A DNA stretch of 64,000 nucleotides from Bacteroidota bacterium (GTDB lineage: Bacteria > Bacteroidota > Bacteroidia > Chitinophagales > Chitinophagaceae). Below, in pieces: positions 46,238-48,672 of this stretch. The notes beneath the pieces were generated by a model. It worked only from the letters and a program-made list of their open reading frames with translations. It was not told the origin of the DNA and ran no database searches. The stretch covers positions 1 to 64,000 of the forward strand of contig JAKQKY010000365.1 of assembly GCA_029560415.1 (NCBI GenBank). The letters are read 5' to 3'. The position numbers and the translations under genes were made by a program. Within the stretch, counting starts at the first letter, position 1. Each line of letters opens with the position of its first letter.

Positions 46238-46365
46238 GGCTATACTTTTTTATGATACGTTGCTCCTGCACCATTTGTTACAGTTTTGGACAAAAATGTA
46301 TAAATTATCGGTAAGGAATGGCAATTTGCCGTAGTTTCGTGTTTCGTTCTTTACAAAACCGCCTG

Positions 46366-46446
46366 AATTTCCGGGGTGCTTTCAATAGAAGGCTGAGATG
46401 ATACCCGTATAACCTGCACAGGATAATACCTGCGAAGGGAGAAAAG
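46366..46446 (+). promoter_or_regulatory. TPP riboswitch (THI element)
   Basis: The sequence carries the conserved parts of the thiamine pyrophosphate riboswitch in order: GGGGTGC, hairpin CTTTC-AATA-GAAGG, CTGAGA, TACCCG, then ACCTG, CAGG-ATAATA-CCTG and GCGAAGGGA. TTTC at 46368-46371 and GAAA at 46441-46444 close P1. It ends about 60 bases before the receptor ATG. Downstream, GCCCA / TGGGC at 46446-46459 and CGGA / TCCG at 46465-46482 can form hairpins, but no U-run follows, so control of translation seems more likely than termination. In Bacteroidota this riboswitch is known before outer-membrane receptors for thiamine uptake. Confidence 0.9.
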
Positions 46447-46506
46447 CCCAGCCTTGGGCCCTATCGGATCCACCTCTGTCCGGATGTTCAGCACAAAATT
46501 ATCGAG

Positions 46507-48672
46507 ATGAAATATTTAATAGCCCTGGTGATTGTATGCCAGTCCTTTGGAATTTCCTTTGCCCAAACAAACAGCAAACTGGCTGATACCAGCCTTTTAC
46601 AACCCATAGAACTGATTGCAATAAGAGCATCTGATAAAACGCCGGTTGCCAAAACAAATTTATCTGCAGCCGAAATTGCTAAAAACAATATTGGCCTGGA
46701 CCTTCCTTTCCTGCTTAATCAAACTCCTTCGGTAACGGTGAACGCAGACGCAGGTAACGGTATCGGGTACACGGGAATCAGGATACGTGGTTCTGATGCC
46801 AGCCGCATTAATGTGAGCCTGAATGGCATTCCATATAATGATGCAGAAAGCCAGGGCAGTTTTTTTGTAGATCTTCCCGACATCGCTTCATCTGCCAATA
46901 GCATCCAGGTACAACGGGGCGTGGGCACTTCCGCCAATGGAGCAGGTGCATTCGGAGGTAGCATCAACCTAAGCACCAATGACATCAACCGGCAACGATC
47001 GCTTGAATTAAGTAACAGCGTTGGATCATATCATTCATTTAAAAATACCCTTTCACTAAACAGTGGTGTATTGGGAAAACACTTTATACTTAGTGGCAGG
47101 CTGAGTGATATCCGCAGCGATGGATATATTGAAAGAGCTTTCAGCCGGCTGAAATCATTTTACAGCAGCGCAGCCTATATCAATGGATCCGATTCCTGGA
47201 GGATCAATATTTTCTCTGGCAAAGAAAAAACATACCAGGCCTGGAATGGCATCGACGAAAAAACCCTTGCCCTGAACAGGCGATACAATGCTGCCGGTAC
47301 AGAAAAGCCCGGTGAACCTTACGCCAATGAAACAGATAATTATACCCAAACGCATTACCAGCTTTTTTACAACCACAAATTTTCTGATAAATGGAAATCA
47401 AATCTTGCATTCTTTCTTACGAGAGGTAAAGGATATTATGAACAATATAAAGCCGGGGAATCATTGAACAGTTATGGATTACCAGACATCATCCAGGGTG
47501 CAGACACAATCACTTCAACTGACCTGGTGCGGCAACTCTGGCTGGATAATTATTTTTACGGAAGTATTTTTTCCTTCCAATATCAGCAACCCAATACCCA
47601 GTTGATCATCGGTGGCGGATGGAACCGGTATGACGGGAACCATTTCGGAGAAATTACCTGGACCGACGTACAGAACGCAGCACCTACTGGTTACCGTTGG
47701 TACAACCTGGATGCCCGCAAAACAGATGGTTCGCTGTTTGTGAAATGGACAGAAAAGCTGACCGATCATTGGCAGTCATTCATCGACCTGCAGGCCCGGG
47801 CAGTGACTTATCGCATCAATGGATTCAGGGATAACCCAAACCTTGCAATCAACAACCAATATTTTTTCTTAAATCCGAAAGCAGGTATCAGTTACTCAAA
47901 AAACAAAACCACCTGGTACCTTTCCTATGCAAGAGGCGCTAAAGAACCCAACAGGGATGATTTTGAAGCAGGTAACACCCAGCAACCCGTTGCCGAAAAA
48001 CTAAATGATTGGGAAGCAGGTGTAGAACAAAAGAATAAACGAACCAGTTGGGCGGTCAATGCATTCTATATGCAGTACAAAGACCAGCTGGTACTTACCG
48101 GAAAGATTAATGACGTTGGCGCATACACGAGAACCAATATACCAAACAGTTATCGCCTGGGAATAGAATTACAAGGTGCAATTCAATGCAACAAATGGTT
48201 ATCGGCAAGTGGCAATATCAGTTTCAGTGAAAATAAAGTAAAGGACTTTACAGAGTATATCGATGATTATGACAATGGCGGTCAACTGACAAACATTTAT
48301 AAAAAAACAAGCATTGCCTTTTCGCCTTCAGTAGTATCGGCTATCAGTATCAACATCATTCCTTTTAAAAACTCGGAGTTGACACTGATGGGAAAATATG
48401 TAGACAGGCAATATCTCGATAATACATCAAACAAAACAAGGAGCCTTGATGGGTATTATGTACAGGATATGCGGTTAAATTATAACTGGAGCAGCAGCAA
48501 GTCTTCTACCGTTAAAATATTTGTGCAGGCTAACAATATCTTTTCTAATGAGTATGAAGCCAATGGGTATACATTCAGTTATCGATATGGCGGAGAAACA
48601 ACTACGGAGAATTTTTATTTTCCCATGGCACCGTTCAACATGATGGCAGGTATTAGTATAAGTTTAAAGTGA
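46507..48672 (+). CDS. TonB-dependent receptor, probably for thiamine or a precursor
   Basis: A 721-residue outer-membrane receptor. Signal peptide 1-19 (MKYLIALVIVCQSFGISFA); a direct plug domain (about 35-145) with LPFLLNQTPSVTVNADAGNG, GYTGIRIRGSDASRINVSLN and VQRGVGTSANGAGAFGGSIN; then a 22-strand-type barrel with WYLSYARGAKEPNRDDFEAG and the C-terminal strand ending MMAGISISLK. It has no carboxypeptidase-like N-domain, unlike the receptor at 26507. The TPP riboswitch in its leader predicts uptake of thiamine or a related compound when TPP is low. No thiamine biosynthesis gene is adjacent, so the receptor is regulated alone. Confidence 0.9.
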   Translation: MKYLIALVIVCQSFGISFAQTNSKLADTSLLQPIELIAIRASDKTPVAKTNLSAAEIAKNNIGLDLPFLLNQTPSVTVNADAGNGIGYTGIRIRGSDASRINVSLNGIPYNDAESQGSFFVDLPDIASSANSIQVQRGVGTSANGAGAFGGSINLSTNDINRQRSLELSNSVGSYHSFKNTLSLNSGVLGKHFILSGRLSDIRSDGYIERAFSRLKSFYSSAAYINGSDSWRINIFSGKEKTYQAWNGIDEKTLALNRRYNAAGTEKPGEPYANETDNYTQTHYQLFYNHKFSDKWKSNLAFFLTRGKGYYEQYKAGESLNSYGLPDIIQGADTITSTDLVRQLWLDNYFYGSIFSFQYQQPNTQLIIGGGWNRYDGNHFGEITWTDVQNAAPTGYRWYNLDARKTDGSLFVKWTEKLTDHWQSFIDLQARAVTYRINGFRDNPNLAINNQYFFLNPKAGISYSKNKTTWYLSYARGAKEPNRDDFEAGNTQQPVAEKLNDWEAGVEQKNKRTSWAVNAFYMQYKDQLVLTGKINDVGAYTRTNIPNSYRLGIELQGAIQCNKWLSASGNISFSENKVKDFTEYIDDYDNGGQLTNIYKKTSIAFSPSVVSAISINIIPFKNSELTLMGKYVDRQYLDNTSNKTRSLDGYYVQDMRLNYNWSSSKSSTVKIFVQANNIFSNEYEANGYTFSYRYGGETTTENFYFPMAPFNMMAGISISLK

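Follow-up and report, generated by a model that had tools for sequence, protein, structure and literature searches.

What does the expression platform of a TPP riboswitch act upon in a phylum, the Bacteroidota, where to our knowledge Shine-Dalgarno sequences are lacking? The question is raised by a TPP aptamer lying in front of a gene for a TonB-dependent receptor in the window, i.e. the whole stretch of 64,000 nucleotides analysed here. An earlier note on this DNA had left open what the platform sequesters, and a partial answer can now be proposed, namely that the 5' strand of the aptamer helices P1 and P2 would pair with a stretch just ahead of the start codon. The reading preferred here is thus a TPP riboswitch repressing an OMthi-type receptor by exchange of this 5' strand with a pre-start motif, to which a probability of about two in three can be assigned. 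The broader proposition of a genus-wide toehold-exchange TPP switch free of Shine-Dalgarno sequences, wired unlike that of other genera and serving a receptor with TMP or TPP as cargo, has to hold in all its parts jointly; it is tentative and falls somewhat short of an even chance. The question of riboswitches working without Shine-Dalgarno sequences in Bacteroidota becomes testable in this way by a few point mutations, and the genus itself supplies natural compensatory mutants.

The aptamer, the receptor gene and the promoter

In an Rfam covariance search of the window, the TPP family RF00059 matches positions 46362-46457 of the forward strand over the full length of the model (positions 1-105 of 105), scoring 64.0 bits where the gathering score is 54.3, with an E-value of 3e-10 for a search of 64 kb with 4227 families. 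The conserved core, that is CUGAGA and GCG before AGGGA, and the helices P1 to P5 are all present, including P1 (46368-46371 with its 3' strand at 46441-46444) and P2 (46372-46375/46404-46407) as placed by the Rfam alignment; P1 has one A-A at its outer end, and the distal arm contains one G-A. The claim of the earlier note that all conserved parts of a TPP aptamer are present is borne out by this full-length match above the gathering score, and binding of TPP by the aptamer would be expected from its sequence. The distance from the end of P1 to the ATG at 46507 is 62 nt rather than the 60 given before. A search of the genome with RF00059 found a single TPP element, which is the copy of the window.

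The gene downstream (46507-48672, forward strand) encodes a TonB-dependent receptor of 721 aa, whose ORF carries the TonB plug domain PF07715 (44.4 bits, Pfam). It is putatively of the OMthi type, an assignment made from the plug domain, the TPP aptamer and membership of a BLAST cluster, and transport of a thiamine-type substrate is predicted. Among solved structures, no relative of the receptor was found at E 0.001. A Pfam scan of 57 ORFs of the window detected none of the known thiamine families; the receptor stands alone behind the aptamer and no other thiamine gene was recognised in the window, as had been stated from the sequence. As an observation on this family, the receptors have about 720 residues in this genus and about 790 in many other genera, and the longer ones appear by eye to have an extra N-terminal domain.

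The arrangement as such, an aptamer followed by this receptor, is identified with near certainty and is already known. The OMthi gene (BT2390) published for Bacteroides thetaiotaomicron likewise encodes a TonB-dependent receptor and immediately follows a TPP aptamer (PMC5613172; BT_2390 in PMC7366714), and strains of this species that lose BT2390 along with either pnuT or the biosynthesis operon are reported to grow poorly at low thiamine (PMC5613172, PMC7366714). At E 0.001, TPP matches occur in 207 of 248 genomes of the order and 114 of 117 of the family. From these matches, 133 loci were read, consisting of the best-scoring and the fetched ones rather than all of them, and a length rule picked the downstream ORF in all except one; 81 of the resulting 132 ORFs belong to the same BLAST cluster as the receptor of the window. 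In one scan, ten named relatives of the receptor, with 41-52% identity, include members of the Chitinophagaceae, the Bacteroidales and Flavobacterium. A TPP aptamer lies upstream in eight of the ten, where two matches exceed the gathering score and the remaining six fall short of it, with E-values of at most 3e-4; the two relatives devoid of a TPP match both start within 350 nt of a contig start. The riboswitch-receptor pair is ordinary and not new, and what deserves attention is its mechanism, which for TPP riboswitches of Bacteroidota has been called uncertain (PMC5613172). As a side observation, two tandem TPP aptamers seem to precede a receptor of the same family at one locus (L007, genome G012), a genome with two TPP matches where the second aptamer is visible in the leader.

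Upstream of the aptamer, a probable -7 promoter box, TAGTTTCG, is found at 46332-46339 on the forward strand (consensus TAnnTTTG) according to the genus pattern. Of the 80 genus leaders whose upstream sequence is long enough, 79 have the permissive pattern TAnnTT[TC][GA] ahead of the aptamer, a count made without a shuffle control. With the box at positions -12 to -5 (PMC9723704), the transcript would start near 46344. Close to this 5' end, the hexamer GTTCTT (46346-46351, forward strand) is conserved in the genus, where G[TAC]TCTT is present in 60 of 82 leaders against a mean of 2.0 and a maximum of 6 in shuffled segments. Besides, pairing of this hexamer with a freed P1 3' strand (GAGAA) would be possible on paper, and an inverted repeat, ATGGCAATTTGCCGT, lies at 46318-46332 and overlaps the start of the putative -7 box.

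Pairing of the aptamer 5' strand with a pre-start motif

In the window, a long-range helix is supported by duplex energy and, across the genus, by covariation, with its 5' strand at 46361-46375 and its 3' strand formed by the pre-start motif UCCGGAUGUUCAGC at 46479-46492, both on the forward strand. Positions 46361, 46363-46368 and 46370-46375 would pair with 46492, 46491-46486 and 46484-46479, respectively, at -17.7 kcal/mol, and 14 nt separate the end of the helix from the A of the ATG (median 13 nt in the genus, range 8-20). As positions 46368-46375 also form the 5' sides of P1 and P2, the helix and the two aptamer stems cannot both exist complete. Directly 5' of P1, CUGAA (46363-46367, forward strand) is complementary to UUCAG (46487-46491) and constitutes a putative toehold. 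Folded without constraints, the window leader forms the helix, at -55.5 kcal/mol against -46.2 kcal/mol when the aptamer pairs are enforced, and the modelled probability of the helix is 0.88. The same model gives P1 a probability near 0 in both leader sets, that is in this genus and elsewhere, which makes fold energies a poor guide for the aptamer; the energy gap between aptamer and free fold (median 9.7 in the genus, 11.0 elsewhere) was also tried and does not separate the groups. With the aptamer enforced, CUGAA is still paired with UUCAG in the window. Only the CCGG half of the helix is strictly exclusive, since CUGAA:UUCAG is compatible with P1 in this fold, and according to the model the CUGAA:UUCAG half may persist alongside the aptamer.

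The pairing was then evaluated across the genus and beyond. The list for the genus comprises 103 TPP matches. Six of them, scoring no higher than 44.7 bits, were left out; the other 97 were read as TPP loci, 86 of which precede the receptor, and 82 leaders were retained after leaving out L059, L162, L204 and L221, where the rule gave no ATG start. The comparison set consists of 65 leaders from other genera of the family, obtained from the 81 receptor ORFs by removing seven of the own genus, seven of other families of the order, one reading N and one lacking an ATG start. Common to the genus leaders are a 5' strand of the aptamer resembling CUGAAUUUCCGGGG and a motif before the start resembling CCGGAUGUUCAGCACAAA. 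Relative to dinucleotide-shuffled leaders, the pairing between 5' strand and leader has a z below -2 in 77 of the 82 (median -3.6), and in 74 of 82 when the run was repeated with the leader limits set a little differently, against 1 of 65 in the other genera. The pairing of the window itself is weaker (z -1.8 against shuffles of its leader). Pairing within a leader beats pairing across species in 63 of 82 cases (p 3e-5).

Covariation points in the same direction. In a MAFFT alignment of the 82 leaders (81 distinct), where the motif is misplaced in some rows, 83.6% of the cells are paired and two-sided changes occur at 8 of 12 helix pairs, with 18 such cells; none of 500 shuffles is as high on any of five covariation measures. 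Register 0 is the best of seven on every measure, and a shift by 1-3 columns brings pairing down to 67% or less. When species rows are permuted in a second alignment, none of 1000 permutations reaches the observed pairing (0.821 against 0.810 for the best). On a receptor tree of 80 tips, the two-sided changes add up to 18 parsimony steps over all pairs, with five at a single pair; neighbouring pairs may change in one event. Compensated examples are provided by G390, with GCAAAAUUUCCGG facing CCGAAAUUUUGC, and by G382, with UAGAAUUUCCGG facing CCGGAUGUUCUG. Strand exchange demands that one aptamer strand take part in two pairings that exclude each other, which is found here from overlap and covariation, and strand exchange is a well-supported candidate for the device of the genus.

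Both small hairpins of the earlier note are indeed predicted, namely H1 (GCCCA/UGGGC) at 46446-46459 and H2 at 46465-46482 (46465-46469 with 46478-46482), both on the forward strand; the conserved feature is the long-range helix instead, within which the 3' arm of H2 lies. As a main conserved element, H2 was rejected, such a local hairpin reaching a z below -2 in 10 of 82 genus leaders.

Riboswitches usually switch through the 3' strand of P1. Pairing of the leader with that strand was considered and discarded, as its median z is 0.18 in the genus (2 of 82 below -2) and also slight elsewhere (-0.34, with 5 of 65 below -2). As in the TPP riboswitches of Escherichia coli thiM and thiC, where one strand of the first aptamer helix switches between a partner in the aptamer and one in the platform, exchange would involve a toehold followed by branch migration (PMC10907184). 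In contrast to both, the platform here is complementary to the 5' strand of P1 and P2, over about 115 nt, and the leader has no Shine-Dalgarno sequence to mask. Strand exchange is described as starting at a single-stranded toehold next to a duplex (PMC10907184), and by analogy the position of CUGAA beside P1 would fit this role. No description of such a 5'-strand pairing was found in the literature searches; a preprint on Bacteroides TPP riboswitches (doi 10.1101/867226) may cover related mechanisms.

Direction of the switch and competing mechanisms

In the absence of TPP, the motif at 46479-46492 would pair with the aptamer 5' strand at 46361-46375, nucleation probably taking place on the free CUGAA toehold before P1 and P2 are displaced. 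The A/U-rich region downstream and the AUG would then stay available and the receptor would be made. Once TPP is bound, P1 and P2 would be locked and the pre-start motif released, allowing the local hairpin 46465-46482 to form and rendering initiation less efficient. The region concerned (46494-46506, forward strand) has adenines at -6 and at -9 to -12, and may act in place of a Shine-Dalgarno sequence, by analogy with initiation in Bacteroidota, which is favoured by upstream adenines and low structure from about -20 to +20 (PMC6847099). Openness of the start region (-12 to +12) was compared between leaders with the helix and leaders with P1/P2 enforced, the helices being placeable in 79 of 82 genus leaders and 63 of 65 others. 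It is higher with the helix in 59 of the 79 (p 1.7e-6), by a small difference (0.573 against 0.532 on average), and in the window it is 0.53 in both states, a nil difference; in other genera, it is higher in 27 of 63 (p 0.92). A first openness measure (72 of 82) was abandoned as biased, for it counted bases blocked by the constraint. The modelled direction fits repression by TPP. Within the window, closure of the start by a first-codon hairpin and by the local hairpin are both poorly supported. Regarding the level of control, the earlier suggestion of translational regulation stands in part: with no terminator-like site found by a scan between aptamer and ATG in the window, intrinsic termination is probably not involved, while the translational level, like the OFF effect of TPP, is likely and remains inferred.

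Other genera of the family appear to be wired differently. Their OMthi leaders have the same aptamer, the same receptor family and a similar leader length, yet exhibit complementarity to the first codons instead of 5'-strand pairing, with a z above 2 in 12 of 65 and a p of 1.4e-8 in a wider leader-to-coding test; in one example, UGUUCCCAAA pairs with UUUGGGAACA, leaving the start codon in the loop. Of side interest, a leader element UGUUCCC(AAA), complementary to UUUGGGAACA in the first codons (MKKFLGT), may form a candidate start-codon hairpin in L084, L074, L073, L070, L010, L115 and others from other genera of the family, and the MKRIA and MKKMLLGIC groups have different sequence solutions for such a candidate hairpin.

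Several other mechanisms have to be weighed against the 5'-strand exchange. Should CUGAA/UUCAG be a permanent closing helix (P0) around the aptamer and hairpins, formed whether or not TPP is bound, the local hairpins alone would switch. This is in line with the persistence of CUGAA:UUCAG in the fold with enforced aptamer pairs and with a local hairpin using the CCGG half being predicted in many genus leaders, yet the covarying helix extends into the UUUCCGG part needed by P1/P2, with two-sided changes at columns 20-22, and the local hairpin does better than shuffles in no more than the 10 of 82 leaders already mentioned; a constitutive P0 is hence unlikely. Quite unlikely as well is transcriptional control, where TPP would bring about termination within the leader, either through Rho or in some unrecognised way. 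Other bacteria are known to have TPP riboswitches that act both on translation and through Rho (PMC10907184), but besides the negative terminator scan, the BT2390 transcript of B. thetaiotaomicron is reported to show no significant change with thiamine despite its TPP riboswitch (PMC5613172), and a survey including Bacteroides data gives 6 of 57 riboswitches as transcriptionally active and lists no Bacteroides TPP one among them (PMC12121620).

The wiring of the other genera could in principle apply here too, with an OFF state where a hairpin between leader and first codons buries the start codon. Such stems exceed those of synonymous-codon shuffles in the comparison set of 65 leaders (Wilcoxon p 1.8e-8), and some genus members pair AGCACAAA with UUUGUGCU (G378, G365, G346). 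For the genus as a whole, however, the test gives p 0.15, with a z above 2 in 4 of 82 leaders and -1.7 in the window, and the wider test fails as well (p 0.08), making a start-codon hairpin very improbable as the OFF state of this leader. The opposite polarity, where the long-range helix would be the OFF state and TPP would turn the receptor on, could be argued from the closeness of the helix end to the start, which could hinder ribosome landing. It deserves hardly any credence, as TPP-controlled uptake genes are expected to be repressed by TPP and the start region is predicted to be more open with the helix in most of the leaders compared above.

The 5'-strand exchange proposed here is not restricted to receptor leaders in the genus. 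Three pnuT leaders have the 5'-strand design with other letters (z -2.0, -3.2 and -2.5), as has a leader before a methyltransferase gene (z -4.7), and among four further readable non-receptor leaders, one is at z -2.1 and three are devoid of signal; by the overall count, five of these eight non-receptor leaders are not below -2, one of the five printing as exactly -2.0, which weighs against the reading.

Thiamine metabolism and the likely substrate

In the genome of the window (4.49 Mb in 515 contigs, contamination 7.3), ThiC, the TPK catalytic domain and the TMP-TENI (ThiE) domain were not found, and ThiL is present on another contig (C125) with 312 bits, over the cut-off. A similar picture emerges from 93 genomes of the genus, 86 of which have a TPP element. 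ThiC is found in 2 of them, TMP-TENI in 22 at E 0.001 (4 over the cut-off) and ThiL in 92 at E 0.001 (87 over the cut-off); thiamine pyrophosphokinase as defined by PF04263 is found in none of the 93, the same search giving matches in 7 of 14 genomes used as controls, including Bacteroides ihuae. With ThiL kept and TPK not found, the recognised route to TPP in the genus would thus be from TMP to TPP by ThiL.

Proteins of the PnuC family occur in 89 of the 93 genomes. The sole copy of the window genome (C443) shares 77% identity with two genus copies that have no TPP aptamer and 33-41% with the five TPP-linked ones, and two genes on from it lies a protein with an AAA_28 domain, which we take to be of the NadR kinase type. 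From this identity pattern and the nearby AAA_28 protein, C443 is read as a PnuC rather than a PnuT. PF04973 was accordingly set aside as a thiamine transporter in the window genome, the own copy grouping with copies that lack a TPP aptamer. In B. thetaiotaomicron, there are biosynthesis genes and a TPP-regulated pnuT-tnr3, whereas in the window genome ThiC, ThiE and the Pfam TPK were not found and the single PnuC-family protein belongs with the copies not linked to a TPP aptamer.

The substrate class deduced earlier for the receptor, thiamine or a phosphorylated or precursor form, is supported as thiamine-type, and the counts for ThiC (2/93), Pfam TPK (0/93) and ThiL (87/93) narrow it towards phosphorylated thiamine, which would be the likelier substrate. 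As a reasoned prediction, the cargo would be TMP, or TPP trimmed to TMP, provided that no unrecognised kinase exists. YjbQ has been named as a ThiE substitute (PMC5613172), and precursors may be imported instead of thiamine phosphates. In other words, the missing pyrophosphokinase and the kept ThiL turn a general expectation into a ranked substrate prediction, thiamine phosphates coming first.

Of note, a TPP aptamer precedes a methyltransferase gene at L058 (G199) and at L176/L255 (G328), and the same first gene is found at L072, L077 and L078. In G199, proteins with AIRS and TMP-TENI domains follow the methyltransferase, with similar ORFs in G328, and these loci of G199 and G328 could possibly be a thiamine salvage operon.
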